A stretch of 64,000 nucleotides of DNA from Ilex aquifolium. Lineage: Eukaryota > Streptophyta > Magnoliopsida > Aquifoliales > Aquifoliaceae. The position numbers and the translations under genes are program-made. Numbering within the stretch: position 1 is the stretch's first letter; the number at the start of each line of letters is the position of its first letter. Under the pieces are notes generated by a model, which saw only the letters and a list, made by a program, of their open reading frames with translations, had not been told where the DNA came from and made no database searches. The stretch lies in contig OX637392.1 of NCBI GenBank assembly GCA_951799425.1, positions 56,473,593 through 56,537,592 on the forward strand. Reading direction: 5' to 3'. This document shows, in pieces, positions 15,006 to 57,799 of this stretch.

Positions 15006-18000
15006 GTTGTGATGCATTTTTGTTCATATTGGCACTAGGCAATGAATAATATAAGTCTCTCTCTCTCCACCCATTCCTTATCCTTTTTGTAAATGCCTTG
15101 TTATAATCGAAGGAAAGCTATTCCTTTGGCTCACATAAAGAAGGCCTAAAGCATGAAAAAACAAAACTAGCAATAAACATATAATTAAGTTCCTTTGGAT
15201 GTAATATGAGTAGTTTCCGTTCATACTATTAATCTCACTTACCCGATAGTGTTCAGTTATCATTACCACCCCTACCCACAACAATAACAACAACAATAAT
15301 ATAGAAATAAATCCAAAAATCTAAACGATATCTTATTCATTTTTATATGTGAACAAGATCAGGTTACCGTTCAAGAAATAATTAAATACTTGAAATTAAA
15401 GATGGGTTATTGACTCTAACCCTAAAAACAATGGGATATGGCTAGGTTGTTATATTATATTGCTTGATACATGTACAATCCCAATTTCGATATTGCCTAG
15501 CTGGCGCAAACAAAGCCATCCGGCCCTACCGGATTAGGAATGCGAAGGCCTTTCAAATAGTATCTATTCAAAGATTTTTATAAGGATAATGAAGTAAGGT
15601 GAGTATGTTTGAGAGATTAAAAAAATGTCCATTTTCCGATATGATCTTGGATCGAGTAACATTTTATAATTTAATGACTTGAGGAGTTTGAATTAGTGTA
15701 TTCTAATCAAGGCCAACTGGCTAAACTGGCATATTATAGAGCATCATGCATTGAAACTTCAAAGAAAAAATATTTTGGGGGTCCATTCATCATTTCTATT
15801 CATGATTCTCTGGAAAATCATGGCCAAGAATGAATAAATAAATAAAATAGACCATCACTCTCTAATGTTCTTTCTTTTCAATAGCTGAAAATGTATGATG
15901 ATGAGGAGAGAAGTCAAGATCCAATCGACAAAAAACAATTCGTTTTAGGTTTTTTATCTGGGTTCGAGCTTCGTTCTTCCTTTATGGTGTAACAAATTTT
16001 TTTCGTTGAGAAAAAAGGTTTTCGTACTTTGTACCCATTATGTATGTTTATATTTGTTTGGGGAGAACCAAAAAGAATAAATGGGAAATAAAAATTTAGA
16101 TTGTGTGCTTGAAATTCAAAGTCAGAATTCCTATCTCATGCCTTATTGACCTTTTGTGCATAGTGCCAACACATTCACCATTTCATTATCTTCATCCAAC
16201 TTCATCACCACCCCTTGATGGAGTCAAACAATCAATCAAACAAGGACCATCTTTGAGGGGGAGAGAGAGAGATGCACATGGGATAAGCATAAATTCAACG
16301 GTACAAAAATGTACAACTCAACTCTTAATTAAAAACCCTAAGCCCATATCAACAACTTAAAATCTTTGATTATCAACAATACATACACACGTGTATTGTA
16401 TGGTGATTAAGAGATACAAAGATAATTCATTACACAAAAAATTACATTGTTACGAAATTTAAAAAAAAAATCTAAATGTAAGTAATTTTAAGAGGAACGC
16501 AAAGAGGCCATTTGAGTAAGAAAAACAACTTTATATTAGTTTGAAATTGGCCATAGTTTCAGCTAAGAGATTGGATGGTCAATGCTAGCACGATGAACAC
16601 TATTTGATTTCAATGCAATAATGGGTAGGGGTTGACTTCTCCATGTTACAATTAACTCCTCACCCTTATCTTGTTATTTCTAGACGCACCCAGGAAGATT
16701 ATAGAATCTTTGAAATTTAATTCTCTATGTTTGTTTGATTAAGAAAAAAATAATGATAGAAAATAAAAGTGGTAGAAAGTAAAGTGAAAGAAAAAAAAAT
16801 ATATTTTTTTTCATGCATTTGGTTAACACGAAATATATACAAGAAAATTTTAAAAATTTTCTTTCTATAATTTGAAAAGCAGGAAAGTTACAAGAAAATT
16901 TGTTTAAATATTAATATTATTCTTATTTATATTAAAGAGATTTATATTCAATAAATAATAGATATGATTATAAATGATTTTGATATAAATTGAACAATAT
17001 TCAAAATGACACATGACTTGGAAATAATATGAATCCAACATGACACAATCTTTTTATCTCTACTTTGGGTTTGATGATGGAACTTCATATTGATATAGAA
17101 CATGTTAGATCGTGTGTGAATGGGATGAATCATTCATCGTACTCGCACGTGAAAGTGGAAAAATGTTACGTGGGACCTACTTGTTTCCAATTTTCAACAA
17201 TGTGGTACCCACTAACAGCTGCCCTTTCTTGGAGTCCAGGGGTCCCCCAGGTTTGAACATAAGCTTGCCTCCTCTTCCCCAAAATTACAAGAAACCATTA
17301 CTTATTTTATTTTATTTTATTTTTTTACTACAGAATGTTCAGAATTGTGCCGATTACTTTGTCGAGTGTAACGACTGGTCGCCGTAATTTGAACAGAATT
17401 GAAATATATTCAACTTGTGCTGATTACTTTCTCGAACTCATCGACTGATTATCGTGATTTGAGAGAAAGAGAATAACTCATCACCCTCATAGAAAGACTC
17501 ATCTAACATTTATTTAATCAACCCTCCCTTTTTTTTTTACTTATCATACAACAGAAAAAAAAAAATAACAAAATTCAACAGACATAATCACATGATACCT
17601 AAAGTCCAAAATTTAAATCCAAACAAGAACCATTAGAATCCTCTATTGTCCAAACCCTAAGAATTGTTCTGATTAGATAGAATAATGTTATTTAAACAAA
17701 ATTTATTTTCTTTATTTGCAGACTTAATCACTCACTCTCTTTGGATTGACAGTGAACTCTATTTTATTGGTTAAGGTCGTTATTAATTTAATGATTATGA
17801 TGATTAAATCAATAAATAAAATTAATAAATTAATTTTCAAATAAAAATTTTCAATTAGATAAATGCACTATAAATGACTATTTGAGTGCAAATGTACAAA
17901 CACCACATGACTTGACTACAGTACCGAAATTTTTTTTGGTATCATATCTCTAAATTTTATTATATTAATGGGTCTTTTATAATTTTTTATGGTCATTTTA

Positions 18001-20830: not shown

Positions 20831-23800
20831 AAGTTTTGAACTCAATACTTCTGAATTTATAACTTGTCCCTTGTCTTCATTAGTCTACCCCTTGGATTTG
20901 AGAGTAATTATATTCAAGTGAGATGGTCCTTCAACAATGGTTGTTACCAACATTGGGCGATTCATGGGACGGACATTCGCAGTTCTCTTTCGTATAGTCG
21001 AACCCTATAGTCTCCCTCGCCCAAGATAAGTGGCAGAATAAGAAAATAAGGGAAACCATCTGCTAGGCTGTGCCATTGTAGTTTCAAGTGAATTTATTCT
21101 TTGCTCTTTCACATACCTAACAAGTCACTCCAAGTTTTGTCCTTTGTCCCATGTCATCTTCCTCTAATTGCCTCCACTCAATAAGCCCAAAAAGTTTGTA
21201 GTCAATTGCCTTTTTAGTTGTCATCAAACAAAAGACTCGAGGGAGTGCAACTATTTTATGGCATATCAATGACCCAACCCCTTAAGCCTCATACACACAT
21301 TTTAGGATAAGTATACAACTAGAGCTTTCAAAATTATGACACGATTTGTTAGCACGATATAAAATTAGAGAGTTTGAGTTTTCTTTAAATCACCCGTTTT
21401 ATAAACGAGTGAAGCTGATACAACACGATTAATAAATGAATCGGGTATGAGTAAAGTTAATCAAAAAGACATACACGAAACGATTTGTTTATATACCGGT
21501 TACACAACTCATATACGACACGAATTCAATATAACACGACTGGTTAGACAAACTAATCGAGTATGAGTGAAATATTTTTTTGACACGAATCACTTTCACC
21601 CAACACGATTGATAAGCCTACAAACAACCCCTATAAAAAAATTAAAAAAAAAAAGGTGGGTAACATACCAGAATTAATGGATATAAATTATTTTTTGTTC
21701 GATTTATGCGTAGTTATTAATTGTAAACATGATAAAGTAATATAGAATAAGAATGTATGAGAAAAAAAAAAAAAGTGAAAGTGCATTACACCCTTCATTT
21801 TAAAGGGTAGTTGTGAGTTACTGTTACAAGAACCGAATCCAATGTTTGTAAGGGAAGGTTAAGGAAAGGAAACAGACAGCCATTAGCCATACCCTTTTGG
21901 AGTCCTCTCAAACTACACAATCAAAAAAGGGAAAATCTCCCTTTTGTTTGCATTAATTCCAGCATAAGTACTAATCGAATTTTAATTCTCCTTTTGCCCA
22001 TTCTTGTAGAGCACTATCAATAATTCCGTGTCTCAACATATTATACAATATTAAAAATTAAATATTGATACTGCAATATTTTTTATGATGTACAAAACAA
22101 TTTTATATAAGATCAACAGTCGAGTGTGTGATAAAGTGTAATTAATGGACAATTAATAGAGCAATCAATGACAATAATATAAATATCCAGTCAACTCACA
22201 GATATGTAGTAGTTCGTTGGCGTGACCTACTCTACTCCGGAAAACGACAACAGTGGTCGGGGAACCTTTATTGATAAAATAAGGTGAACGAGATATAACA
22301 ATAGTTAACTCCAGGAGAGGTACAATAGTTATGAGAGAAAAAAACTATGTGAGGGGTGTGTAGAGAGATGTAGCGATGCTTATCTCAATGGAGAGAACTT
22401 ACAATTTATAAGCACATAGCCTTAGTTGAGGAGGTGACTTGAGGGGGAAGACACTAATTCTTTGGGGATGATAGCTACAAAATGTAAGTACAATTAAATG
22501 GTGTCTTGATCTTCGAGAGTGAGTATCTCGATAATTGCTCCCCACGTGCTCTAATCCTTCTTGGACTCCTTGGACATTAGGCTGGGTCGAATTCACAAAC
22601 TGGGTTTGACCTGTTTTTTAGCTGACTTAGGCTTACTTGATTTATTGTGTCTGATCCTGTTGAATCTAGGCTCGTCAATTTTATATTTTAAATAATAATT
22701 TAATTTTTTTAAGTACTTAGTTTAAAATTAAAATGAAGAGAAATGTAGGTGTTGATTGATTGATGGAATGATGCAATTATTTGATATTCATAAATATATT
22801 GATTGAGTTGTCTTACATTAATTTAGACTCTTGTTGCATTTTATAAATTGAGAATTCAACTTACTACCTAATATCAAATAGATTTCTCACATCATCTAGA
22901 ATAAATGTTTCAAAATATGACACTACTCGTTAATACAACACGAACACGACACGAAATTAGAAGAATTGTTATTTTTTTAAGTCACCCGTTTCATAAATAA
23001 ATGTATCAAACACGACACGATCAATAAATGAATTTGGTATGAGAGAAATCAATCAAAAAAAATATATGACAAGACTCGTTTATATATCGGTTTTACACGA
23101 TTCATATATAATACGAACCCGATATGATACGATTCATTTAAACAAATCATGTATGAGTGAAGTATTTTTTAATATGAACCCGTTAAAAATCGATATAAAC
23201 CTATTTCACTCGACACAATTGAGAGGGGTAATCTTGGGTATATATCACACTTCATTTTGCACCCAATCACATTAAGAATTAGTTGTCATGCTCTTACTCT
23301 GTCTCTACCAAAGTAAGTGGCCCGTGACTATCACATGGCATCTGGGTCTTGCCGTAAAAGCCTTTGGAGTCACGTTTCGGCGACCCTTTTTATTGTGGCC
23401 GACGTAGAAATAAGCGCCACAATAACTATGGCTTTATCCAAACACCGATAAGGTAAATATTAGGTGTACAAAATCTGATGATTCAGCTTCAAAACTATAC
23501 TTGTGGATATATACCCACCTACTTTTATACACAATATAATAAAAATAAATAAATAAAATAAAAAAGTGAAAGTGGGGAAAAAAAAAAAAACCCATCTACG
23601 GATCAAGATGCAAATATTTTTCAAGCAATTTAAATAGAATAATCAAAATCATGAGCGCATCCTCAAAAAAAAAAAAATTAGGAATAATTTGTGTTTGAAG
23701 GTACGGTGCATTGTAAATAGTTTTGAGAAATATATTTGTGGCCGTTGAATGAGTCTATTTGAGACTGTCCGATGGACTTATTGAAGTCTGTCTTGTTTTA

Positions 23801-24330
23801 TATTATAGATTAGGGATAGCTCGTGTCTGAAGGTACAGTGTAATGTGAATGATTTTGAGAAGAATATTAATAGTCATTGGATGAGCATATTTAAGACTGT
23901 TTGATGAATTTATTGAAGTCTGTCATGTTTTATATTGTAGATACCATTTTTTGATAACAAACAATATCCTATGTTCAAATTTCATATCTCTCATTATTGT
24001 ATACTTATGAATATATATTGTATACTTATGAATATATATAAGGAAATATATGTATATTTTAAATATATTTATCTAAAGTTATATTGCAGCCACAAGAATT
24101 CAAGAAGACAATAACTCAACTTCCAAGTGATCTAATTTTTTTTGAAAGTCAATATGAATTGAATCCAGTCCCACCAAGAGGGATAAAGATAGATAATATA
24201 TGTGTACCTGCCGACGTGTACTTACCGTTGGTATAAGTTGGAATATCAAAACGTTGACTGCCACCAAGTCTTTTGTGCTCCTTGCATTCCCACCATCACA
24301 TTGCCACATTAGTTTGTGGATTAAATTATA

Positions 24331-24515
24331 GTAGTAACAAAAAAGGAATTGTAAATTTATATATTTTAAATTTAAATCATAAGAGATTTCTCATTTATCC
24401 TTCATGAATATTTTTGTTTTGGTGTAGATGATCTGTATTTGATTAAATCGGAGAATAAATTAGTCGAAGTGCGTTTAAACTGATCCGAACACCCCTCCAT
24501 TGAAAAAAAAAAAAT
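24331..24515 (+). mobile_element. Second Au-like SINE copy, absent from unit 1
   Basis: It has the Au-type tail GATGATCTGTATTTGATTAA, then TTAGTCGAAGTGCGTTTAAA, and ends with an A tract at 24504-24515. Unit 1 lacks this stretch (junction near 5082). Unit 3 has it at about 61078-61283 with a different right junction, so units 2 and 3 share an insertion that unit 1 lacks or lost. Confidence 0.55.
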
Positions 24516-24875
24516 AACTTGTGAATTCATTCTTGATTTCATTCATACTTATTTTTGGTGTATAAGACTAAATGTTTTCAAATTTATGATATTTATCCCT
24601 TTGAGCCCAAAATAGCCATTCACAACTATGATCTTATCCTTTTTTATCCACCCAAAAAAAAAACATAATTATTGCAATATTATCTAATTATCCGTAATGA
24701 GAACCGTGAATTTATCCCATTGATAAAAAATGTCATTTTGAAGAGCCAAACAACCTAGATTTCTCTCTCCCTCTCCCCCCCCCCCCCCCCCTCTCTCTCT
24801 CTCTCTCTCCATAGTTGTATGTAAAAGAACTAAAAATGAAATCACTATTAAAATATTAATCTTTTATTCTTCTAG

Positions 24876-24986
24876 ATGGGCTGACCTAATGGTCATTGCC
24901 TCTAGTATTAGACTTTAAAGTTACAGATTCTAATCTCATTATTTTTCACTCTATAATAGTGTGGTAGTGCCTAACCAAAAAAAAAA
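24876..24986 (+). mobile_element. Short tRNA-derived SINE (unit 2)
   Basis: Counterpart of the SINE at 5409-5521, with the same A-box-like and B-box-like parts and A tail. Inherited with the duplicated unit. Confidence 0.5.
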
Positions 24987-25242
24987 TTACTATCCCCCCT
25001 CTTATGGTAGCGTCTAATTACCAATGTCAATCAGAGTTTTATATGAATCAATATACCACAAACATGGGAAAAAAAAACTTGAAATGAAAATCTGATGGCC
25101 GTGACAACAACAAAAATGACAATTTTTCTCACAAATTGGGATTGGATTAGAAAATCACACTACATAAAAACAATGTATTAACATATGGTATGGACGTTGA
25201 TAGATCATTCATAATGTATTAAAGAATGAGTTTTATTAACCC

Positions 25243-25434
25243 TAATGAGTAGTTTAAGTAGTAAGAAGATTGAACTATAAATTCAGACATTCTGAGTTCA
25301 AATTTTTGTAACTCCTTCAGATTAGGTCAGGAGGGAATCATCCCTTATGAATACCCTAATTTTGACGTAGATGATTTGCTTTTGATCAGACCTGATAAAG
25401 AATTAGTTGAAGTCGGTGTAAGTTGGCCCAAAAG
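25243..25434 (+). mobile_element. Au-like SINE in STP2 promoter (unit 2)
   Basis: Same element and position relative to the gene as 5776-5967. It is a shared, pre-duplication insertion. Confidence 0.6.
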
Positions 25435-25669
25435 TTTAAAGAAAGTATGTTGGAGATGATCCAATTTCAGTCATAATTCTAATTTTACATAAATTAAGCC
25501 TAGATTAAAGTTAAAAGATAAATACTCAGAAATTATTTACTATATTTTGAGTCTTCTGACAGCTACCATACTCCTTAATTTACGAAATAGACTATTGAAT
25601 TTCTATATATACACTTTCCACACCCATACAAACCTCTTATCTTCTCCTTGTCTACTCTCTCTTTCCCTC

Positions 25670-25677
25670 TATAAATA
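25670..25677 (+). promoter_or_regulatory. TATA box of STP gene 2
   Basis: TATAAATA is 113 bp before the ATG at 25783, in the same position as in genes 1 and 3. Confidence 0.7.
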
Positions 25678-25782
25678 CTGTCTACATTTTCCATATTCTA
25701 ACACTTCTCTGTCTCAATTTTCCTTTCTTCCTCCTCATTCATACCCCAAACCACTTTCTCTCTCGTGTTTACAACCACAACA

Positions 25783-28690
25783 ATGGCAGGCGGAGGTTTT
25801 GGTCCTGGTCCCGGTAATGGAAAAGAATATCCAGGCAACCTTACTCTCTATGTGACTGTAACTTGCATTGTTGCTGCTATGGGTGGTTTGATCTTCGGTT
25901 ACGATATCGGTATTTCAGGTACACCTAAATTAAAACCCATATGGTTTTTATCTTGTAAAAATGGTTATGTTTAGATATTTGATCTGGATTTCATGTGAAA
26001 ATATGTAGGTGGAGTGACATCCATGGATTCATTTCTGAAGAAGTTTTTTCCATCTGTGTACAAGAAGCAAAAGGCTGATACATCCACGAACCAGTACTGT
26101 ATGTTTGACAGTCAAACACTGACCATGTTCACATCTTCATTGTACTTGGCTGCACTTATATCATCTATTGTAGCTTCTTGGGTGACCCGAAAACTAGGAA
26201 GAAAGTTGTCAATGCTCTTTGGTGGTGTACTCTTCTGCATTGGGGCTTTGATCAACGGCTTTGCTCAAGCTGTCTGGATGTTAATTGTTGGGCGTATTTT
26301 GCTTGGTTTTGGTATTGGGTTTGCCAATCAGGTCTGTTTGTCTCTCTCTAAAACATATGAAATCTGTCTGATTTTTTTTCTCACAATTGTGTTTGGTGTA
26401 AAGGGTGTTTGTTTTGTTTTGGATCAAGAGATTCGAATGTTTTAATATACCACTTTTTTGTTGGCTCATTTCAAGTTGTTGGTAGAGTACAAGTTTGGTG
26501 TTTTTTGAAACACAAGAAGGAATATTTACAAGTTTTTTTTTTTCCATACGATTGTTCCAAGATTTTTGCTTGTTCTCTTGTCTTGTTCCTTGTCCTTGTG
26601 TATTTGTTTTCCCCTGCTTTTGTGTTCTTGTTATCAGTTTTGAATCATACCCTTAATTACTCAAAAGCAAAACTGCCTGAAAATTTGATTTTCAGAACAA
26701 GAAAAGTACTTCAAAAACACCACACAATTCAAATTTTTTTCAGATCTGAGTGTTGTTCAAAAGAGGTGGTCAGAGAAGAGTATTTCAAAGTACTCAGATG
26801 TGTTTTTTGCTGTAAAGTTGACTCTGAACCAGTTCTGATCTTCTGCATATCTTTTTGATCCTTAAATTCTCTGGTCACTGATCTTTGTGTCCAGTGTCTG
26901 TGATTTTCTTTCTGGGTTTTTTGTATCATTCTCTAAAACAAGTTTCATCAAACTCTGATTGTATTGCTAGTTGAGTTGATCTTAGATTCGGATCTGCTTT
27001 GAGATTTGCTTCAACTAGATAAATCACTTGTTACTCATCAAGCTGAATACAAATTAGTCAAAGAAATAAAAAAAAGTAGTCTAATAATTAGTGGTTGAGA
27101 CAAAAGAATCCCCTTTTTTCAATTAACATTATCTGCAAGTCATAACTACCTTGTTTTTCTAAGCACATGACATTTCTGTTTGCTATGTTTCCATCATCCG
27201 TTTACTCGTGAATGCAACGGCGTTGAATATAAACAGCTAACAAATTGACTTTGAAAGTAACTCTTTCATTAATTTATGTATAAATTATGCACATAATGAT
27301 CTGTTTTCCTTGTTTGATTCCAAAATTGACCCCCGGATAACGACTTTTATTTAATTAATTTCCAATTGTATAATTCAAAATTATCATGTAGATTATAATT
27401 TGTAATGGGTTTTCCAAATTATTGGGATTAAGGCTATGTTTTGATTATGGTGTTCATGTGTTCTTGTTTGGTTTGTAATTACAGTCTGTGCCACTCTACT
27501 TGTCTGAGATGGCTCCTTACAAGTACAGAGGTTCCCTGAACATTGGCTTCCAATTGTCCATTACAATTGGTATCCTTGTAGCAAACATTTTGAACTATTT
27601 CTTTGCTAAGATCAAGGGCGGATGGGGATGGCGTTTGAGCTTAGGGGGTGCAATGGTACCTGCCCTTATCATCACAATCGGATCACTAGTCCTTCCCGAG
27701 ACACCAAACTCGCTCATTGAGCGTGGCAAGACAGAAGAGGCAAAAACTAAGCTTAAGAGAATTCGAGGTATTGAAAGTGTTGATGAGGAGTTCAATGATT
27801 TAGTTGCTGCTAGTGAGGAATCTAAGAAAGTGGAGGACCCTTGGAGAAATCTTTTGCAAAGGAAGTACAGACCCCAACTTGTAATGGCCATTGCTATTCC
27901 ATTCTTCCAGCAACTTACTGGGATTAATGTGATTATGTTTTATGCACCGGTTCTATTCAAAACAATTGGTTTTGGAAGCAACGCTGCACTCATGTCTGCT
28001 GTGATCACTGGTGCTGTAAATGTTGGTGCAACCTTAGTTTCAATCTATGGTGTCGATAAGTGGGGAAGGAGATTTCTCTTCCTTGAAGGTGGTGTCCAAA
28101 TGCTTATCTGCCAGGTATGTCATTTGCTATTGTTCATCAAGATCAAGTGACACAACATGTTTGTTTTGTTTTTATGGTACTGATTTTTCATTTTTGTATG
28201 AGTGTAGGTCGTTGTTGCAATCTGTATAGCTGCTAAATTTGGAACAGATGGGAACCCTGGTGAGTTACCAAAGTGGTATGCTATTGTGGTGGTGCTATTC
28301 ATCTGCATCTATGTTGCTGGATTTGCATGGTCATGGGGTCCTCTTGGATGGTTGGTACCTAGTGAGATTTTCCCACTCGAAATCCGATCTGCTGCACAAA
28401 GTATCAATGTTTCAGTCAACATGATCTTCACATTCGCTGTTGCTCAAATCTTCCTGACAATGCTTTGCCACTTGAAGTTTGGTTTGTTCCTCTTCTTCGG
28501 GTTTTTCGTGATAGTTATGACCATCTTTGTATACATCTTCTTGCCTGAGACCAAGGGAATACCAATTGAAGAGATGGTGATTGTGTGGAAACAACACTGG
28601 TTCTGGTCCAGGTTCATGAGTGATGAGGATTATCCGGCTAATGGCGCGATCGAATTCAGCAAGGGAGATAAGCCTCTCAAAGAAGTGTAG
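25783..28690 (+). CDS. STP1-like: STP1-like proton/hexose symporter, gene 2 (complete, 4 exons)
   Basis: Exons are 25783-25918, 26009-26331, 27485-28114 and 28208-28690; introns are 90, 1153 and 93 bp, all GT-AG. It encodes 523 residues and is a near twin of the gene starting at 6361. I see seven substitutions relative to that gene: V218I, I222V, D237E, A265E, S321A, D382E and I500M. All transport landmarks are kept (Asp41, Arg141, Gln176, Gln295, Gln296, Asn301, Asn332, Trp411, Cys76/Cys450). Several changes are in the loop between helices 6 and 7 or near the C terminus, so similar transport activity is expected. Intron 2 is about 500 bp longer than in gene 1. Gene 2 has the same TATA-to-ATG spacing as the other copies and no insertion in its proximal promoter. 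Confidence 0.97.
26332..27484 (+). other. Intron 2 of STP gene 2 (long form)
   Basis: This intron is 1153 bp, against 654 bp in gene 1. The extra part lies between about 26770 and 27290. The 5' end of this intron carries a CT microsatellite that is short here, longer in gene 1 (6910-6931) and longest in gene 3 (63577-63602). Confidence 0.8.
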
Positions 28691-28740
28691 TCTACCATGA
28701 ACTTATATATTGCTGCATACATACAGAGTTGTCAAAGGAT

Positions 28741-35135: not shown

Positions 35136-36179
35136 TCTCCTCATCCTCTTTCTCTCTCCACCCATTCCTTATCCTTTTTGTAAATGCCTTGTTATAATCG
35201 AAGGAAAGCTATTCCTTTGGCTCACATAAAGAAGGCCTCAAGCATGAACAAACAAAACTAGCAATAAACATTTAATTAAGTTCCTTTGGATATAATATGA
35301 GTAGCTTCCGTTCATACTACTATTCTCAACAACAACAACAATAACAACAACAATAACAACATAGAAATAATTCAAAAATCTTAACGATGTCTTATTCATT
35401 TTTGTATATGAACAGGATCAAGTTACCGCACTACAACAAAAATCGTTTTTTGCGACGATTTTTTTCGTTACTAAATTAAAAAAAATCGTCGCCAAATGTT
35501 TTTTGCGACGTTTTTTTTTCGTCGCGTCTTCGTCGTAATAGCCTCGTCGTAGAAAGTATGTTGCGACGCAATTTTATTTTCATCGCAAAAAAAAAAAAAT
35601 TGCGATGAAAAAAAAACGTCGCAAAAAATAAATAAACGTAGCTAAAATCTATTCCACCAGCGTAAAAAAATAAAAAAATTTAATTAATTAATTTTTCGCG
35701 ACGTAAAAAAATCGTCGCAAATATATTTTTCATAAATAAATTTTTTTTAAAAAAATTAATTAATTAATTTTTCGCAACGTAAAAAAATCGTCGCAAATAA
35801 ATTTTTACATAAATAAAAAATTTTAAAAATAATAATTAAATTAATTTTTCGCGACGTAAAAAAATCGTCACAAATAAATTTTTACATAAATAAAAAATTT
35901 TAAAAATAATAATTAAATTAATTTTTAGCGACGTAAAAAAAGCGTCGCAAATATATTTTTATATAAATAAAAATTTTAAAAAAATAATAATTTAATTAAT
36001 TTTAGCGATGTAAAAAAATCCTCGCAAATAATTTTTTAAATAAATAAAAAATGTAAAAAATAATTAATTAAATAGGACTGTGGATGCGTACACAGCTGCA
36101 TTTGAGCTATGAAATAGGAGCCGCAAAAAAATTTTGATTTCATCCATATTGAGTTATAATCACACCATTCAAATATTTC

Positions 36180-36700
36180 ATAAGACTAAGAAAAGGAAAA
36201 TTTTATTGATAAAAGAAACAATTACAAGAATCAAAGAACAAACTTTTTTGAAAGAATACAAGAAATGGCTTTAATCCTTCAAGATGATTAAAACCATTTT
36301 TAACTACTTTACTGCATCTTCTGATCTTCACATTCAGCTCCTGGAATCTGTCCAGCTACTGACGCAGGGCCTAAGATTATAAATCACCAGGACAACTGCT
36401 CTACGATTGATGATTCCTATAGAAAGTGATAAACATGTGATTTACAAGACCACCATAAGATTTCTTCCTCTGCCAAAGCAAGGACTACCATGATAATCCT
36501 GTTCCTGTACCATGTGAACTAAAAGGATACTGCAACCATCACAGAGCTATGAAACCACAGCATGAAGCAAGAAATTTAAAGATAATTGCAGGTTATGGTC
36601 ATATATAAGAATGGCTTTGAACTCAACAAGGTTTTGCATTCCTACTGCAATAATATATATTGCAACCAGCTATAATAATACAAGGACATTAAATTTCAGC
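36180..36700 (-). other. Possible captured 3' gene sequence, unidentified
   Basis: This part of the CACTA interior is richer in G+C than the rest and has AG/GT splice-like sites on the minus strand (near 36373 and 36526). It may be 3' sequence from a captured gene. No protein family was recognised. Confidence 0.2.
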
Positions 36701-37036
36701 AAAGTAAAATCAAGGGTTGCATCAAATTATGATAAAAAAAGAAAAGATGGTTTTCACTTTATAAACTATGAATAATAATGTTCCCTAGATCTCCCTCTAG
36801 CTATGAACTCCCCGAGTTCGACACTGAACTACATGCTATGATAAAAGGGTGTGTATCTCCATAATCAAGCAGTCACAAGTCTGAAAACACTTCATTGATA
36901 GAATTTAAAACTCTTTAGTTTTAGATCAATTTTGAACGATAAGAAGGTACTATGCCACCTTAAAGTAAAACAAAATAACAATCAAGGTCAAAACCTTCGT
37001 ATACTAAAGCATAATGAAACTCCACAGAAACCAAGT

Positions 37037-37826
37037 TTAAAAGCTTAGTAGAGCAGAATAAAAAGTGGGTTTCCAAGTACGAGCAGCAACTGGAGCTCCT
37101 CCAGCAGGACGCGGTGCTTGACCTGGCCTTGGAAGATCCTCTTGAAGCAATGAAGAGAATTATATTAAGAAAACTGATATAATAAGCAGCAATATTATAG
37201 AGATGCAATACCACGTAGCAAGCTTTAAAAATTCATTGGTATTGTAACTGTCATTATGTGTGCCCCTGCGAATTGCATGCAAGGCAGACCATTGGCCAGA
37301 TAGCGTTGGTATATTCATTTAATACAAATTCAATTTTCGCTTTAGATAAGTATTTCATGTCTAATATGTCCAATTTTGACAAACTGCTTAAATCATTCAA
37401 AGGATGATCGAACCTCAGCAACAGAACATATCATTACAAGAAGAATAAATACTGTTAACAATTACAGAAGGTGAGGTAAACATACTCTTGGGCGCCTGAA
37501 TCGCTGAGGTGGTTCACGGTTCCTCCTATTTGTGCGAGAGCGGACCCTAACAACTTTCGAGTGAATTGCACATGAAACACAGTACTGCATCTTCACGTAC
37601 AACTTGGGGAGAGTGTATGCTAAATACACATAACAGCTACCATTTGGTTAATTATCTCCGTCATTACAATGCAAATAACTAATTCTAAAAAAGAATATGC
37701 ATAAAAAATTAAGAAGCTAAGAGAATTACTATGAAATGCACAAGCATCTTGCACATCCCTAACAGCAGCTTGCTCAACTATGTTCCTCACAAGAAACCTC
37801 TTGATAGCAACTTCCCATGACAATAT
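37037..37826 (-). pseudogene. RPS26 fragment: Captured 40S ribosomal protein eS26 fragment (three C-terminal exons)
   Basis: Minus-strand exons are 37730-37826, 37486-37619 and 37037-37138, separated by GT-AG introns. They read [20 protein letters not shown] and DACAF, then [20 protein letters not shown] and [20 protein letters not shown], then DLPRPGQAPRPAGGAPVAAR. This is the central and C-terminal part of eS26, a small-subunit protein. The N-terminal zinc-binding part (normally MTFKRRNGGRNK to CGKCC) is absent, so it cannot replace the real protein. The frame continues about 12 residues past the usual C terminus before the stop at 37037. Introns are kept, so capture was from genomic DNA and not from mRNA. 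Confidence 0.88.
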
Positions 37827-37898
37827 CTTTATAACGTGACCCAGAAAATAGCACAGCAATGAAACAGAAAGAAGCATGATAAAAAAGCAGAAAGCTAC

Positions 37899-38454
37899 CT
37901 GGTCATAATCAATATAGCCAGTGCTCTCATTCAATCTATATGGCATGGTCTCAAAAAATATAGAGACCGCTGATATCTTCTTTGTGTCAGTCTGTCCAAA
38001 TAAAGGAAATATGAGACTACATTTAGTATGCCAAAATCCAAAGAGAATGATGTGAAAGTCAAATAGAATGATGATGTGATCCGGCTAAACCTCGGTACAA
38101 TTTTTATGTCGGTAAGAATGCTTAATGTAGAAAATTAGATAACTGGAGAGTTATACGAACAAGCATGTTATGCAAATACACAGACAAACTTAGGTGTGAA
38201 TTGATATCCACGTAATTCAAAATGCAAAAACACACACATAAACTTAGGTACACTGATATTCAGAAAATCTACTGGAACTAACACCCAAATCCCATTTCAA
38301 CATATGATGGTTTAAATGTCTTGTACAAACTTGTGCATTACATCAGAGCAGGCTGCATGTGACCCAAAAGTTGGACAGCACGAATTATTTAGCAGGGAAA
38401 CACAAAAGAAATTGCAAGCACCTGATAGCCATGTGAAAGATGCCCACCATGAGG
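37899..38454 (-). pseudogene. SHM fragment: Captured serine hydroxymethyltransferase fragment (two exons, mitochondrial type)
   Basis: A 33-nt exon part at 38422-38454 reads PHGGHLSHGYQ. After a 430-bp GT-AG intron, a complete 93-nt exon at 37899-37991 reads [20 protein letters not shown] followed by [11 protein letters not shown]. These are consecutive exons of a plant mitochondrial-type SHMT, the enzyme that interconverts serine and glycine in photorespiration. The catalytic lysine region is not included. Upstream the exon is cut off at an A tract on the plus strand (38455-38470). The downstream splice donor is intact, and its phase is compatible with the eS26 exon that follows at 37826. 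Confidence 0.88.
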
Positions 38455-38540
38455 AAAAAAAAAAAAAAAACAATGATTACTAGATATCCTTCTAAATAAA
38501 ACAGAGAACAAAAAGCAATAGCAAAACACTAAAATAATAA

Positions 38541-39246
38541 TGGGTGAGACTATCCCACCATTTATACATCCTTTCCCACCCCATTTAATTTTTTAATTTC
38601 AAAACTAAACCCATCACATCTATACCCACGCCGATAATGACTAAGTTCACCTCATTTATACATAAACCATTAATCAAAAATATCCTGTTAATCAAAAACT
38701 CATAATATTCACCTATATACAAGCATAATATTATATATCGAAAATATTCGTAATAAATATCAAAAAAAAACATAAAATATAAGATTAAAAAACTATTATT
38801 CAAAATGCAGATTAAAACCCTAAAATACAATACATGTACATGAATGCAATTGATAATATCTAGTGCAAACTGAACTATATCATCCATATGGTATCTCCTA
38901 TCTAAAATGCAATAGATAATATTCATATACAATTGAAAAATATAATAACTTAAATAAAAATGAAGGGACAAAAATAATGAAGTTAAAAATACGAATGGAC
39001 AACACAAATGTGTGTGTGAGATGGGATAGGAATAGGAAACCTTGGGGCAGGAAGACTAGTTTATGTGTAGAATATATGATGGCTATAGAGATTATGGGGT
39101 GATCTTAGTTATTGATGGGTGGGTATAGACTGGATGGATTTAGACACTAATGGGGTGGGTATACATGGGGTGAACTTAGTAGTTTGAGATTAGAGAGTTA
39201 AATGAGGTGTGCAAGGATATTTAAGGGGTAGGAATAGCTCTACCCA
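38541..39246. mobile_element. TIR element nested in the CACTA element
   Basis: The left end TGGGTGAGACTATCCC and right end (reverse: TGGGTAGAGCTATTCC) match imperfectly over about 45 bp. It is flanked on both sides by ATAATAA-type sequence, so the target duplication is uncertain. The 140-residue minus-strand open frame inside is AT-rich and resembles nothing I know. Mutator-like or hAT-like; no transposase. Confidence 0.65.
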
Positions 39247-39439
39247 ATAATAATAACCAAATCAAATAAAACATTCCACTGAAAACATCACATTGTTATG
39301 GTATTTGGATCATTAGGGAATCAAGATCCATAGGAACTAAATCCTGAAAACAGGTAGCTAATAGCCCCCGCTGTTTGTAACAGGCTAACTTAACCCAGGT
39401 AGAAAAGGCATGCGAAAAGATATAATGTAAGCAACCCAA

Positions 39440-39540
39440 GAGGCACTTTGAGAATGGCGTACCTGCTCATCTTGGTGACAGTTTTGAATTCAAAAATTGC
39501 AGTGTTTTTGAGCACCAAGGTCTCAGTATTGTTCATCTAA
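39440..39540 (-). other. Possible further captured exon, unidentified
   Basis: On the minus strand an AG acceptor-like site precedes ATGAACAATACTGAGACC, and an AG/GTACGC donor-like site follows. The open stretch encodes ETLVLKNTAIFEFKTVTKMS. Composition is less AT-biased than the flanks. I do not recognise the protein; it may be host sequence or chance. Confidence 0.25.
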
Positions 39541-40429
39541 GGGAGCGAATTAAAAGATAAAGAAAAGAAATACAATCAAAATACTATATCTACCATAGCA
39601 TTCAAGTTTACTAACCAAACAATCCAATATATATAGAAAAAAACAAAAAAACAAAAAAAAAAACTTCAGATCGAGGTCTTGTAGAAGATAAGAGTGACGA
39701 AGAATAGATCGAGTTCAAGCTCTCACTCTGGAATTCAAAGATCGCCAATTAAAGCTAGGGTTACTGCTTCTCCACAATGCCGATTCAAGCTACGGTTCTT
39801 GATTCTCCACAATGCCGATTGGGTCGGCGGACCACACAGACCCAATCCCAGGCAAAAAAACAGAGAGAGAGGGAGACGAGGTGGGTGGGGCTGGAGGCTT
39901 CGGCTGCCAAAGAAGAGGTGGCTATATGGCTGTAAGCAATAGGTGGGTGGGGCTCAGAAGAGAGGGAACAAAGAGGGGGGGGGGGAATGAGATAGAAAAA
40001 CAGAGAGAGAGGGAGACGGTGAGTGAGAAAGAGAGTGTTGGAAAGGGGAATGTGAAGAAGAAGGGGCTGCTAGGGCCAAATGGACGTATATAAATACTCA
40101 AAACGACGTCGTTTTGAGTATAAATGAATTTTCTTTCGCCCAAAAACGATGTCGTTTCACTTTTAAAAAATATATTTTGCATCGTTTTATGAAAACGTCG
40201 CAATTAATATTTTAATTCTAATTTAAAATTACAAAAAACTGAATTCTGCTACGAATATAAAACGTCGCTAAATAATAATTTTATTCAGCTCCCGCCATCT
40301 TTCGGGCCAAAAATAAATTGGGAGGGAATCACCTTTCGCGACGTTTTCCAAAAACGTCGCAAATGAAATTGCCAAAAAATGAAATTTGCGACAAAATTCA
40401 AAAAACGTCGCAGATAGTAAACATTTAAC

Positions 40430-43400
40430 TTATACACTTTCAATTTCATTCAATTAACACTCAATTCATCAAATTAACATTCAGATTTAACCAATTGACA
40501 TTCAATTTCATCAAATTAACATGTAATTTATCAAATCAACACCAAATTAACATGTAATTTCATTCAATTAAAATTTAATTTATCAAATTAAAACAAAATT
40601 AACATTCAATTAATCGAATTAACACTAAATTAACATTCAGATTCAACTAGTTAACATTAAACTAATCAAATAAACTTTCAATTTCATTCAATTAACACTC
40701 AATTCATCAAATTAACATTCAAATTATCAAATTAACATGTAATTTATCAAATCAACACCAAATTAACATGTAATTTCATTCAATTAAAATTTAATTTATC
40801 AAATTAAAACCAAATTAATATTCAATTAATCAAATTAACACTCAATTTCTTCTAATTAACATTCATTTTTTTCTAATAAGCATTTAATTCACTAAATTAA
40901 CATTCAAATTCAACTAGTTAACATTAAATTAATCAAATAACCTTTCAATTTTCATTCAATTAACACTCAATTCATCAAATTAACATTCAGATTTAACCAA
41001 TTGGCATTCAATTTCATCAAATTAACATGTAATTTATCAAATCAACACCAAATTAAAACAAAATTAACATTCAGTTTCAAAAATTAACACTAAATTAACA
41101 TTCAGATTCAACTAGTTAACATTAAACTAATCAAATAAACTTTCAATTTCATTCAATTAACATTCAATTCATCAAATTAACATTCAAATTATAAAATTAA
41201 TATTCAGATTTAACAAATTAACATTCAAATTCAACTAGTAAACATTAAATTAATCAAATAACCTTTCAATTTTCATTCAATTAACACTCAATTCATCAAA
41301 TTAACATTCAGATTTAACCAATTGGCATTCAATTTCATCAAATTAACATGTAATTTATCAAATCAACACCAAATTAACATGTAATTTCATTCAATTAAAA
41401 TTTAATTTATCAAATTAAAACAAAATTAACATTCAATTAATCGAATTAACACTAAATTAACATTCAGATTCAACTAGTTAACATTAAACTAATCAAATAA
41501 ACTTTCAATTTCATTCAATTAACACTCAATTCATCAAATTAACATTCAAATTATCAAATTAACATTCAGATTTAAAAAATTGACATTCAATTTCATCAAA
41601 TTAACATGTAATTTATCAAATCAACATCAAATTAACATGTAATTTCATTCAATTAAAATTAAATTTATCAAATTAAAACCAAATTAATATTCAATTAATC
41701 AAATTAACACTCAATTTCTTCTAATTAACATTCAATTTTTTCTAATAAGCATTTAATTCACTAAATTAACATTCAAATTCAACTAGTTAACATTAAATTA
41801 ATCAAATAACCTTTCAATTTTCATTCAATTAACACCCAATTCATCAAATTAACATTCAGATTTAACCAATTGGCATTCAATTTCATCAAATTAACATGTA
41901 ACTTATCAAATCAACACCAAATTAACATGTAACTTCATTCAATTAAAATTTAATTTATCAAATTAAAACAAAATTAACATTCAATTTCAAAAATTAACAC
42001 TACATTAACATTCAGATTCAACTAATTAACATTAAACTAGTCAAATAAACTTTCAATTTCATTCAATTAACACTCAATTCATCAAATTAACGTTCAAATT
42101 ATAAAATTAACATTCAGATTTAACAAATTAACATTCAAATTCAACTAGTAAACATTAAATTAATCAAATAACCTTTCAATTTTCATTCAATTAACACTCA
42201 ATTCATCAAATTAACATTCAGATTTAATCAATTGGCATTCAATTTCATCAAATTAACATGTAATTTATCAAATCAACACCAAATTAACATGTAACTTCAT
42301 TCAATTAAAATTTAATTTATCAAACTAAAACAAAATTAACATTCAATTAATCGAATTAACACTAAATTAACATTCAGATTAAACTAGTTAACATTAAACT
42401 AATCAAATAAACTTTCAATTTCATTCAATTAACACTCAATTCATCAAATTAACATTCAAATTATCAAATTAACATTCAGATTTAACAAATTGACATTCAA
42501 TTTCATCAAATTAACATGTAATTTATCAAATCAACACCAAATTAACATGTAATTTCATTCAATTAAAATTTAATTTATCAAATTAAAACCAAATTAATAT
42601 TCAATTAATCAAATTAACACTCAATTTCTTCTAATTAACATTCAATTTTTTCTAATAAGCATTTAATTCACTAAATTAACATTTAAATTCAACTAGTTAA
42701 CATTAAATTAATCAAATAACCTTTCAATTTTCATTCAATTAACACTCAATTCATCAAATTAACATTCAGATTTAACCAATTGACATTCAATTTCATCAAA
42801 TTAACATGTAATTTATCAAATCAACACTAAATTAACATGTAACTTCATTCAATTAAAATTTAATTTATCAAATTAAAACAAAATAAACATTCAATTTCAA
42901 AAATTAACACTAAATTAACATTCAGATTCAACTAGTTAACATTAAACTAATCAAATAAACTTTCAATTTCATTCAATTAACACTCAATTCATCAAATTAA
43001 CGTTCAAATTGTAAAATTAACATTCATATTAAACTAGTTAATATTAAATTAATCAAATAAAACTTTCAATTTCTTTCAATTTACACTCAATTCATCAAAT
43101 TAACATTCAAATTATCAAATTAACATTCAGATTTAACAAATTGACATTCAATTTCATCAAATTAACATGTAATTTATCAAATCAATACCAAATTAACATG
43201 TAATTTCATTCAATTAAAATTTAATTTATAAAATTAAAACCAAATTAACATTCAATTAATCGAATTAATACCAAATTAACACTCAATTTCAAAAAACGTT
43301 GCAAATGAAATTGCCAAAAAAGGAAATTTGCGACAAAATTCAAAAAATGTCGCAGATAATAAACATTTAAATTATAAATTTTCAATTTCATTCAATTAAC

Positions 43401-43530
43401 ACTCAATTCATCAAATTAACATTCAATTAATCAAATTAACATTCAGATTTAACCAATTGACATTCAATTTCATTAAATTAACATGTAATTTATCAAATCA
43501 GCACCAAATTAACATGTAATTGTTTATCAA
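40430..43530. repeat. AT-rich higher-order tandem repeat inside the CACTA element
   Basis: Short words such as AATTAACATTCA, ATCAAATTAACA and TTCATTCAATTAACACTC recur throughout. Longer blocks recur at about 0.87-0.91 kb: the CCTTTCAATTTTCATTC word is at 40941, 41272, 41810, 42172 and 42720. The array has almost no G on the plus strand. Its left and right borders carry near-copies of the same 80-bp GCGAC-containing sequence (about 40355-40435 and 43290-43370). Confidence 0.88.
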
Positions 43531-45002
43531 AGTTAATATTTTTGTTAATTTTTTATTTTATGTAAAAAGTTATTGGCGACGTTTTTTAACAACGTCGCGA
43601 AAAATTACCAAAGTTAATAATTTTTTAATTTATCTAAAAAGTTATTGGCAACGTTTTTATAAAATTATTTAAGTTAATATTTTTTTGGTAATTTTTGTTT
43701 TATGTAAAAAGTTATTCGCGACGATTTTTAGAAACGTAGCGAAAAATTACCAAAGTTAATATTTTTTGGTAATTTTTTAATTTATGGAAAAATTTATTCG
43801 CGACGATGTTTAGAAACGTCGCAAAAAATTTCCTAAGCTAATATTTTTGGTAATTTTTTATTTTATGTAAAAAGTTATTGGCGACGATTTTTAGAAACGT
43901 CGCTAAAAATTACCAAAGTTATTATTTTTGTTAATTTTTTATTTTATGTAAAAAGTTATTTGCGACCTTTTTTGAAAACGTCGCAAAAAACTACCTAAGT
44001 TAATATTTTTGATAATTTTTTATTTTATGTAAGGAGTTATTGTCGACGTTTTTTAAAAACGTCGCAAAAATTAATAAAGTTAATATTTTGTTAATTTTTT
44101 ATTTTATGTAAAATAATAAAAAAATAATTTATTTCATTTTTTCGCGACTTTTTTAGAACACGTCACAAATAAATTTTTTCCATAAATAAAAAATAAAAAA
44201 ATAATAATTTAATTCATTTTTCCGCGACGTTTTCCAAAAACGTCGCAAATAATTTTTTTCGTAAATAGAAAATTAAATAAATATTAATTTAAATCATTTT
44301 TTGCGACGTTTTTAGAAAACGTCGCAAATAAATTTTCTCGCCATTTCTCCCGCTAAAGACAAATAGGAGGGAAAAGCCTTTTCGCGACGTTTTTAAGAAA
44401 ACGTCGCAAAAAAATTGCCAAAATAGAATTTTGCAACAAAATTATAAAATCGTCGCCAATAGCAAACTTTTTTCGACAAATTGAAAATCGTCGCAAAAAA
44501 AAACGTCGCAAAAAATATTTTTTGTTGTAGTGCCGTTGAAGAAATAATTAAATACTTGAAATTAAAGAATGGTTTATTGACTCTAACCCTAAAAACCATG
44601 GGATATGGGTTGGTTGTTATATTGTACTGTTTTATACATGTACAACCCCAATTTTGATATCGCCTAGTTGGCGCAAACAAAGCCGTCTGGCCCTACCGGA
44701 TTAGAATTGCGAAGGCCTTTCAAATAGTATCTATTCAAAGATTTTTATAAGGATAATGAAGCAAGGTGAGTATGTTTGAGAGATTAATAAATTGTCCATT
44801 TTCCGATATGATCTTGGATGGAGTAACATTTTATAATTTAATGACTAGAGGAGTTTGAGTTGGTGTATTCTAATCAAGGCCAACTGCCCAAACTGGCATA
44901 TAAAAGAGCATCATGCATGGAAACTACAAAGAAAAAATATCATGGGGGTCCATTCATCATTTCTATTCAAACAAAAATGTACAACTCAACTCTTAATTAA
45001 AA

Positions 45003-49650: not shown

Positions 49651-51005
49651 ACAAATATATTTGGGACTGAATGTGTGTGTGAGTGTTTTGAGTTATAAAT
49701 GTTTTTTCATTTATAAAGTTATTTATGAAAATGAGTGGGTGTTTTGGGTTATAAATGTCATTTCATTTATAAAGTTATTTGTGATCATTAGATGATTTTG
49801 TTTAAATAATTATGTGAAAGAGATTGTGGTACAATTTGTTGTAAAATTGTACAATTTGTGGCACAATTTTTGTATGTAAACTGTGAGATTTATTTTCATA
49901 CCTCATTAGAGGTGATTGCTATTCACGGGTCATTGTGCTCATACAAACATTTAACATTTTTCAGGTGAGAATCAGGGTGAGAAGTAAACCTGCAGAAAGA
50001 CAAGAGAGTAGAGGACTTGAAGATTTATTTTACTGTAGGTCTCCAGGAATAAATGTCTTTTGTAATTTTAAGACAAGTATTTAATTATTTTGGGAATAAT
50101 GTTGCTTATGTATAGAGTAGTGAACCTTATGGTTTAATTATTATTTACATGAGTTTAGTAATGATGTTAGTGATGTTTAGTTTATTCCTCTGATATTCAT
50201 TAGGTCAGTGAAATGAATCACTTTATTATTTGTCTTATGCTGTATTTTGCATTTATTATGCACAAGTTTGGTTGGTTAAGGCCTTGATGGCCCGTCCGCC
50301 GCCCACCATATGTGATCCGGGGTGGGGGTGTGACAACTGCAGCTTACTAGAAAATTTTGTAAGCCCAAGAATTTAGTTTCTAGCATTATTATTTTAAACA
50401 AACATTAAAAAATCAGGAATTTTTTTTTGTTTCTCATATTTTCTGTCAATCTCTCGCTAATCAAATGAAGCCTGAAAAATTAGCAACAAAAGACAAGAGT
50501 TGCACTCTTTTGGAACTAGATTAAATTGCCCAGCCTATCGGGTTACAATCACGGTGTTAGGATAATCTAGGTGTGATTAATAGTGTTTAATATGATGCAT
50601 TAATTCAATACGAAATTGGTACCGAATCATTGTATATAAGCTCAACTTTAATGAATTGATTTTCGAAATGACACATGAGTTAGACATAATATGAATCCAT
50701 CGTGACACGATGGTTTTTACCTCTACTTTGGGTTTGATTATGGAACTTGATATTGATATTTATAGAACATGCTAGCTGCCTAGCAAAATGCCACAGATCA
50801 AATGGTTGTCTGGTGGCCTAGCTTAGCCTTTGGTCCCCCCTGTGGCTTGTTTCAACACTTCTTTCATTGCACCAACTCAACTCAAAAGTCAATGTGTATT
50901 GGTCATAGTCTTATGCATTATGGGCATTCCTCATCATGACATCTCTTTATCCAACGGTTACCATCACAGCATCAGAACAACCATAATAGAAAGGCATATT
51001 GAGTT

Positions 51006-51653
51006 GGTCATGAAATTGACTCATGAACTAGTTGTTAAACATCTTAATGTGTGACGTCTGCCTGAATTGTCTTGTTTGATGAGTAGTCAAGTTTCTTGAT
51101 GCCAAGTTGTGAGAAATACATCCAATTTTGAATTTTTTTTTTTAAATTTCACTATCAATTTCGAAATGGTCATGAAATTGACTCATGAACTAGTTGTTAA
51201 ACATCTTAATGTGTGACGTCTGCCTGAATTGTCTTGTTTGATGAGTAGTCAAGTTTCTTGATGCCAAGTTGTGAGAAATACATCCAATTTTGAATTTTTT
51301 TTTTTAAATTTCACTATCAATTTCGAAATGGTCATGAAATTGACTCATGAACTAGTTGTTAAACATCTTAATGTGTGACGTCTGCCTGAATTGTCTTGTT
51401 TGATGAGTAGTCAAGTTTCTTGATGCCAAGTTGTGAGAAATACATCCAATTTTGAATTTTTTTTAAAAAATTTCCCTATCAATTTCGAAATGGTCATGAA
51501 ATTGACTCATGAACTAGTTGTTAAACATCTTAATGTGTGACGTCTGCTTGAATTGTCTTGTTTGATGAGTAGTCAAGTTTCTTGATGCCAAGTTGTGAGA
51601 AATACATCCAATTTTGAATTTTTTTTTTTAAATTTCACTATCAATTTCGAAAT
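51006..51653. repeat. 162-bp tandem repeat, four units
   Basis: Units start at 51006, 51168, 51330 and 51492 with GGTCATGAAATTGACTCATG and are nearly identical; a partial fifth follows. The right copy of the local duplication has a single unit (about 55050-55211). Confidence 0.95.
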
Positions 51654-52776
51654 GGTCATGAAATTGACTCATTTCGAAATGCCCAGCCATGGAGGTAAAG
51701 AGGTCCATGGAGGGGCACTTCATAAGTCATTAAAAAATAAATAATAAATTAGCCACGTCAGATCGTGTGTGAATGGGATGAATCATTCATCGTATTCGCA
51801 CGTGAAAGTGGAAAAATGTTACGTGGGACCTACTTGTTTCCAATTTGCAGCAATGTGGTACCCACTAACAGCTGCACTTTCTTGGAGTCCAGGGGTCCCC
51901 CAGGTTTGAACATAAGCTTGCCTCCTCTTCCCCAAAATTACAAGAAACCATTACTTGTTTTATTTTATTTTTTTACTCTAGAGTGTTTAGAATTGTGCCA
52001 ATTATTTTGTCGAGTTCAACGGCTGGTTACCATAATTTGAACTGAATTGAAATATATCCAGGTTGCGCCGATTATTTTGTCGAACTCATCGACTGATCAT
52101 CGTGATTTGAACTGAATGAGAACATATCTCTAAAAAGACAAAGGTGATAAAAAAGAACATAAAGAATCATATCATGTTTTAGCACAACCATATCTGGTTA
52201 CTATTATAATTTTAAGGGAAAATAAGATTATAATTTGCACAACCATATCATGTTTTAGCATTTATCTAGTTATTATTAGGATATTAGAGAGAGAGAGTAA
52301 TGTATCACCCTCATAGAAAGACTCATCTAACATTTATTTAATCAACCCCCCCTTTTTTTTTACTTATCATACAACAGAAAAAAAAAGACAAAATTCAACA
52401 GACAGAATCACATGATACCTAAAGTCCAAAATTTAAATCCAAACAAGAACCATTTGAATCCCCCTATTGTCCAAACCCTAAGAATTGTTCTGATTAGATA
52501 GAATAATGTTATTTAAACTAAATTTTTTTTCTTTATTTGCAGACTTAATCACTCACTCTCTTTGGATTGACAATAAACTCTATTTTATTGGTTAAAGTCA
52601 CTATTAATTTAATGATTATGATGTATTAAGTCAATAAATAAAATTAATAAATTAATTTTCAAATAAAAAATTTCAATTAGATAGATGCACTATAAATGAC
52701 TATTTGAGTGCAAATGGACAAACACCGCATGACTTGACTACGGTACCGAAATTTTTTTTGGTATCATATCTCTAAA

Positions 52777-57795: not shown

Positions 57796-57799
57796 AAGT

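Follow-up and report, generated by a model that had tools for sequence, protein, structure and literature searches.

Adjacent SHMT and eS26 gene fragments in a holly CACTA element, most likely joined by fusion of two fragment-bearing elements

Some transposons carry pieces of more than one host gene, and the origin of such multi-gene cargo is often inferred from single elements. A locus on C2 of Ilex aquifolium raises the question in a compact form, as two SHMT exons are followed closely by three exons of the ribosomal gene eS26, all in one orientation on the minus strand of a CACTA element. How did the two fragments become neighbours, and can they be spliced and expressed together? In what follows, the window is the whole stretch of 64,000 nucleotides that was analysed (C2:56473593-56537592), and the genome searched comprises 800,232,872 bases in 103 contigs. 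Comparison of related elements suggests that the pair most likely arose by the fusion of two elements that each bore one fragment, rather than by a single capture of two genes.

The features of the locus are collected in Table 1. An earlier note on this DNA had described a Pack-type CACTA element combining host fragments, and this description is borne out. The CACTA-type terminal inverted repeat CACTACAACAAAA is found as an exact match at 35429 (+) and at 44532 (-), CCG flanks both ends as a 3-bp target site duplication (TSD), and a paralogous copy of the flanks elsewhere in the window represents the empty site. The subterminal repeats characteristic of the CACTA superfamily are present near either end as arrays of the motif CGCGACG, which occurs ten times in the window (nine of them inside the element) compared to a mean of 0.14 in shuffles. 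The CACTA ends and the 3-bp TSD rule out identity as a Helitron or a MULE. No transposase family was matched in Pfam by any of the 56 open reading frames of at least 45 aa that lie in or across the element ends, so the element is non-autonomous; at least 151 Transposase_21 matches are found across the genome. Only two of the 56 frames gave matches above cut-off (SHMT and Ribosomal_S26e), and below it were a third match, again to SHMT, two matches to domains of unknown function, and a zinc ribbon (E 0.23). A minisatellite of about 3 kb, made of 20-bp and higher-order units, lies inside the element.

Table 1 Positions of the element, its captured fragments and related features within the window
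Feature	Position	Strand	Evidence or remark
Complete non-autonomous CACTA element, 9104 bp	35429..44532	minus (strand of the captured fragments)	TIRs, TSD CCG, empty site
Right (3') terminal region with subterminal repeats	35429..36073	minus	end comparison
Element sequence between eS26 capture and right end	36074..36357	minus	identity comparison
eS26 capture: exon 2 remainder, exons 3 and 4 with introns and 3' flank	36358..37808	minus	97% to host gene at C4:6.814-6.817 Mb
eS26 exon 4, native start 37141	37034..37141	minus	frame ends at TAA 37036-37034
eS26 exon 3, 134 nt	37486..37619	minus	Pfam PF01283, 7.7e-20
eS26 exon 2, without acceptor and first bases	37730..37808	minus	
Joint: GCT, the 3 bp in which eS26 exon 2 and the SHMT intron of SHMT-only elements overlap	37806..37808	minus	
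SHMT capture: two exons with the intervening intron and a portion of the following one	37806..38456	minus	97% to host gene at C8:5.764-5.769 Mb
SHMT exon TDTKKISAV...GYIDYDQ, 93 nt, phase 0 at both ends	37899..37991	minus	
SHMT exon, 5' truncated, ending ...GHLSHGYQ	38422..38456	minus	
Third stretch with a likely source	39349..39535	minus	183/187 bp (98%) to C8:7.2606 Mb
Element module X	39533..39820	minus	in SHMT-only C2b, the window copy, joined C13 and C10a; partly in C6
Leader, transposase-gene type	39824..40100	minus	95% to a stretch at C3:50.943 Mb upstream of a Transposase_21 frame
Minisatellite array	40439..43498	minus	also in a transposase-bearing relative at C3:50.94 Mb
Left (5') terminal region with TIR	43538..44532	minus	first 200 bp nearest eS26-only C1 (93%)
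Paralogous empty site, single CCG, flanks continuous	15138..15565	+	flank duplicate, 83% identical including gaps

Exon mapping and Pfam confirm the order and common orientation of the two sets of exons that the earlier note had reported, and the SHMT donor-site GT does begin at 37898 in phase 0 as it had stated. The matches to SHMT (5.5e-8) and Ribosomal_S26e (7.7e-20) both exceed the curated cut-offs, and PDB searches likewise name SHMT and eS26 proteins. As the captured pieces of eS26 (about 1.45 kb) and SHMT (about 0.65 kb) both show 97% identity to multi-exon host genes, in introns as well as exons, the identification is more than a chance resemblance. A search of the genome for the intact donor genes and for further copies, which the earlier note had proposed, found both: donors on C8 and C4, and the joint at six loci. 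In the family search, the eS26 donor (C4:6814549-6815700) covers profile positions 2-103 of 108 with no stops, and a paralog was found on C19. The SHMT donor (C8:5763602-5769194) gives matches from profile position 22 to 396 of 399, with stops flagged in some profile rows, as they are for the other SHMT genes listed. More distant relatives of the fragments on C19, C1:14.43 Mb and C12 match at 75-95% in short pieces. The donors, which the earlier note had considered might already sit side by side outside transposons, lie on separate chromosomes. The intron between the two SHMT exons lacks, in the window copy, 1.1 kb that the donor has, and this difference (1134^2257) is common to the six elements that hold that part; it could be a gain in the host instead of a loss in the copies, and is therefore not used here as evidence of descent.

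A genome search with positions 37037-38454 as the query returned 32 matches, from which ten 20-kb regions were fetched. These correspond to nine elements and the C4 eS26 donor, giving ten elements with the window copy. Elements are named below by chromosome, with a letter where needed. Joined SHMT-eS26 fragments are found in the window copy, C6, C13, C3 and C10a (31.265 Mb), eS26 only in C1 and C15, and SHMT only in C2b (44.53 Mb), C10b (13.45 Mb) and C2c (50.01 Mb). Further relatives, seen in part, lie on C9, C10 (5.74 and 34.57 Mb), C14 and C2 (11.48 Mb, C2d); in the copy at C10:34.57 Mb (L047), the SHMT piece ends early and continues into right-end sequence. All fetched elements have one common family of ends. 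Taking the best-matching end on each side, matching 3-bp duplications were found for all eight elements with both ends (the left end of two elements lies outside the fetched region), and all eight differ: cgg, tta, atg, act, cac, tga, ccc and tat.

The joint itself was sought with a 31-base pattern spanning it, allowing up to three mismatches across the genome. It occurs at six loci (C2:11.476, the window locus at C2:56.511, C3, C6, C10:31.265 and C13), while a reversed control gave none. Four of the joined copies are covered to both ends (window, C6, C13 and C3), each with its own distinct TSD. The joined element has thus been mobilised as a unit, being present at six loci with different TSDs in four of them. 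C3, C10a and, by coordinates, C2d form a subgroup that has in common a further breakpoint and a 164-bp stretch; the stretch precedes a common SHMT start at 37939 and has a partial 95% match to C8:139329. At C2:11475635-11480449 the joined copy is broken by about 3.9 kb, with a 6-bp query overlap at the break, suggestive of a subsequent insertion that duplicated a short target.

The joint lies within an SHMT intron on one side and just inside eS26 exon 2 on the other. Here the SHMT-only elements read GGGAAGTTGCT and then TTCG, the eS26 donor and the eS26-only elements read CAGGACAAAGCT and then ATCAAG, and the joined elements read GGGAAGTTGCTATCAAG across the joint. Where the SHMT-only elements have GGGAAGTTGCT, the SHMT donor gene reads GGAAACTTGCG, so the joined copies hold the element version of the SHMT bases. 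At the joint, eS26 exon 2 has lost its native acceptor (TTTCAG) together with its first bases. The SHMT intron breaks off short of its own acceptor; in the donor, about 1 kb more separates this point from the following SHMT exon.

The breakpoints of the captured pieces relate the joined elements to the single-fragment elements. In eS26-only C1 and C15 the capture covers bases 8103-9837 of the C4 donor region, 1735 bp in all; in five joined copies (window, C6, C13, C3 and C10a) it covers bases 8385-9837, with an identical right end and a start 282 bp later. The SHMT-only C2b, C10b and C2c all stop at donor base 2915, which is 398 bp beyond the joint, and the SHMT piece of the joined elements reaches donor base 2517. 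A deletion that removed donor exon and intron sequence (190^685) is common to SHMT-only C2b and to joined C6 and C13. The common eS26 right end and the common deletion indicate that the joined and single-fragment elements trace to the same captures, and because the single-fragment elements run past the joint, the joined elements derive from longer single-fragment forms.

The sequence around the captures distinguishes the parent types. Between the eS26 capture and the right end, positions 36074-36357 of the window copy are 97-99% identical to eS26-only C1 and C15 and to joined C6, C3, C13 and C10a, and 93% to C2d, as against 76-77% over about 126 bp to SHMT-only C2b, C2c and C10b. The right ends of the joined copies cluster with C1 and C15, apart from C2b, C2c and C10b, and the last 150 bp of the right terminal region likewise cluster with the eS26-only and not the SHMT-only elements. 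Left of SHMT, joined C13 matches SHMT-only C2b at 96.7% over about 740 bp, and module X was not seen in eS26-only C1 and C15, nor in C3, C10b and C2c. From the right ends, the C13/C2b match and module X, the hybrid consists of a left part of C2b type and a right part of C1 type; the parent types are thereby established at the right end and in the region left of SHMT. The left termini give a mixed pattern, in that the leftmost 200 bp of the window copy are nearest to eS26-only C1, while C13 and C3 pair together. A single exchange cannot account for this pattern, and left-end relationships were dropped as a proof of parentage.

We therefore regard it as probable that the hybrid was formed when two Pack-CACTA elements, each already carrying one fragment, were fused. 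One parent, of C2b type, would have carried a fragment of the C8 SHMT gene, and the other, of C1/C15 type, a fragment of the C4 eS26 gene. The left part of the first would have been joined to the right part of the second at the 3-bp match GCT, each parent losing its inner end, and the outer ends would have remained a pair that transposase can use in trans, giving the hybrid now seen at six places. The parents may initially have been adjacent, with deletion and end joining as the likely reaction; no adjacent pair of parent elements was seen.

An alternative is that one ancestral element captured both genes, in which case the joint would be an internal deletion and the single-fragment elements would be other deletion derivatives. 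The single family of ends fits with such an ancestor, as does the fact that internal deletions do occur in these elements (190^685 in the SHMT piece), and eS26-only C1 has a left module in common with SHMT-only C10b and C2c. However, none of the ten fetched elements, the window copy included, holds both fragments beyond the joint, and the right ends of the SHMT-only elements are unlike those of the joined and eS26-only elements, with the sequence that follows the SHMT piece just 76-78% alike over about 110-129 bp. A single double capture is therefore unlikely, although it is the strongest competitor to fusion.

Fusion of two elements fits a published route proposed for Pack-TYPE growth, in which two neighbouring insertions come to move as one after the inner ends are deleted or mutated (PMC8903248; the model of Catoni et al. 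2019 as cited in later work). Published examples of such fusion include AB and BB elements (PMC8903248; review PMC13317346). The holly elements agree with the Pack-CACTA and Pack-TYPE elements in the accessible text of Gisby and Catoni 2022 (PMC8903248) in having CACTA ends, in being non-autonomous, in carrying host fragments and in existing in several copies, as well as, on the fusion reading, in growing through fused neighbours with inner ends deleted or mutated. They differ from what that text describes in that the parents carry fragments of different genes and both parent types still exist, and in that the joint falls within each of the two captured fragments, where these match over 3 bp, unlike the AB example printed there, which has some DNA of unknown origin between its two parts. 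What holly adds to the route is both parent types and a joint at the level of single bases. The locus thus offers a base-level case in which fragment-carrying elements fused inside captured genes would bring exons of different genes side by side with no need for another capture. Because the donors, the two one-fragment types, the hybrid, a subgroup rearranged further and an empty site all survive in a single genome, the succession of events is in large part directly visible.

The second question is whether the fused fragments can be spliced. The earlier note had pointed to a possible AG acceptor ahead of 37826 and had reported matching splice phases from the SHMT donor through to 37037, implying an SHMT-eS26 gene ready for splicing. 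The AG is indeed present and keeps the eS26 frame, but it is a cryptic AAG in SHMT intron sequence (compare the donor on C8), and plant introns use AAG less often as an acceptor. Inspection by eye shows two AGs from about 37890 to the joint, of which one keeps the frame, so the phase match there is weak evidence. Further on, the frame can be kept to 37037 by way of an exon from 37138, but the native last acceptor has been lost, CAG having become CAA in the window copy; the first AG past it (exon from 37140) breaks the eS26 frame and the next (exon from 37138) keeps it. This acceptor is lost in three of the six joined copies (window, C10a and C2d). The frame continues to 37037, with the stop at 37036-37034, because the host stop TGA is TGG in the window copy, which alone among the six joined copies has lost it. 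The internal junctions are in phase as claimed, but this phase was inherited from the donor introns. A gene ready for splicing is thus not supported, since the native acceptors are lost at the joint and the new junction needs the cryptic AAG. If transcribed, the fragments would have to use that cryptic acceptor to be spliced together. For annotators, the ribosomal and SHMT exons at 37034-38456 belong to a transposon, and their matching splice phases come largely from donor introns.

Sequence variation among the copies was compared for exons and other positions. Across the six joined copies, with C2d counted in part, 12/280 exon sites and 52/1168 other sites are variable (p = 1.0), and no purifying selection on exons is visible in this set. 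When C1 and C15 are added, the counts are 23/281 and 64/1168 (p = 0.09). Differences between the donor and the joined copies amount to 1.8-2.5% in exons and 2.8-3.9% elsewhere (p 0.29-0.68). An exon excess between C1 and the window copy (10/280 vs 11/1168) comes from a cluster in the C1 lineage. The simplest reading is that the fused fragments are passengers under no visible constraint. Within the eS26 part, divergence among the joined copies is about 1-2%, for which typical plant rates give, as a rough guess, an age of roughly one to a few million years.

The window copy has additional sequence upstream of the fragments that bears on their expression. The leader lies upstream of, and in sense with, the fused SHMT-eS26 fragments, and at no fewer than 5 of 22 other loci with this leader, a Transposase_21 match on that strand follows within 6 kb. 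Among the fetched elements the leader is seen in the window copy alone, the sequence covered for C10a and C2d stopping short there; neither of these two loci was listed in a search in which 40 of 76 candidates were scored. Gain of the leader by the window copy is favoured over loss elsewhere. Apart from its match on C8, the 187-bp stretch (39349-39535) is likewise confined to the window copy among the fetched copies and the 40 of 76 candidates scored. It gave no Pfam match, and a single PDB match (E 0.1) was unconvincing. Between this stretch and the SHMT piece, an AT-rich segment (38459-39351) is 98% identical to the joined C13 element and shows, by eye, imperfect inverted ends, GGGTAGAGCTATTCCTACCCC and GGTGGGATAGTCTCACCC; it is perhaps a nested small transposon.

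The window copy, with its leader in sense upstream of the fused frame, might be transcribed and give a chimeric RNA or protein, a reading we consider very unlikely. In its full form, an expressed chimeric gene would start transcription at the leader, join the SHMT donor site to the cryptic AG by splicing, and be translated. The transposase-type leader in sense would suit such a gene, as would a frame from SHMT to eS26 that is open in the window copy even without splicing, and there is a precedent in Tgm-Express1, where CACTA-borne fragments are spliced as exons (PMC1947982). The unspliced frame over the joint is also open in C13 and C3, but it is shifted in two of the five copies compared (C6 and C10a), and the exons are under no visible constraint. 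The window copy has no in-frame ATG ahead of the SHMT coding part, the first such codon lying inside the SHMT exon. Together with the loss of the native acceptors at the joint, the loss of the last eS26 acceptor and stop in the window copy, and the restriction of the leader to that copy among the fetched elements, this makes an expressed and translated chimera highly improbable. Were it real, the window copy would be a gene caught at birth through successive transposon fusions.

Trees and single-base comparisons were also considered as evidence for the common descent of the joined copies. In eS26 trees, made without C9 and C10c, the joined group receives 50-57% bootstrap; it is absent from the FastTree result, and the SHMT tree, made without the short C3 and C10a, does not recover it. 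The C3/C10a/C2d subgroup, for its part, reaches 99-100% bootstrap for eS26. At 27 sites in eS26 and 17 in SHMT, the joined and single-fragment elements agree with each other and differ from the donor; joined elements and donor agree against single-fragment elements at 8 and 3 sites, and single-fragment elements and donor agree against the joined elements at 1 and 0 sites, respectively. Six of the 8 eS26 sites in the second class are clustered, together with a 1-nt insertion, in the lineage of the eS26-only elements. When the agreeing sites were polarised with paralogs, 7 eS26 changes fell on the donor side and 2 on the element side, compared to 3 donor-side, 4 element-side and 1 other for SHMT. 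Substitution patterns were thus set aside as the main proof of common descent, as few sites can be polarised and those of eS26 are mostly donor-side, and the case rests on the breakpoints. Separate captures from both host genes directly into one element, with no single-fragment parents, might be suggested by the similar donor identity of joined and single-fragment copies (about 95-97%) and by agreeing sites of which several could be donor changes, but can scarcely be credited given the exact eS26 right end with the same following sequence in C1, C15 and the joined copies, the 190^685 deletion common to C2b, C6 and C13, and the element-type bases at the joint.

Capture of host genes has been reported for the En/Spm-related elements of the Tpn1 family in morning glory, which differs from the holly element in its host. 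The soybean element Tgm-Express1 (PMC1947982) is a closer counterpart, as this CACTA element contains exons and introns of several unrelated host genes and sets the precedent for chimeric splicing. It differs in that its five genes are others, one encoding an unknown protein, and in that it is inserted in intron 2 of F3H1 and is transcribed from that promoter. The terms 'serine hydroxymethyl' and 'ribosomal' are absent from the main text of that paper, and no reconstruction of a fusion was found in its accessible text. CACTA elements of Chenopodium (PMC8978399) similarly contain captured gene fragments together with tandem-repeat arrays, but in the accessible text these are Neprosin and AP2 fragments, unfused and located in the 5' region upstream of a coding domain. 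A literature search to which subscription papers were largely out of scope found no paper on an SHMT/eS26 pair in a CACTA element, and its results for Ilex, CACTA and gene fragments were just papers unrelated by title.

Outside the element, the window contains segmental repeats at 644-8819, 19527-28740 and 56467-64000. The first two lie about 19-20 kb apart, with blocks at 90-98% identity (for example, 644-4967 with 19607-23960, and 7404-8819 with 27325-28740). They bear CCA-rich repeats and two pieces of sugar-transporter genes (PF00083); portions of the segmental repeats recur at 56.5-64 kb. A further tandem array at 51005-51672 consists of about four near-identical copies of a 162-bp unit (98% matches).
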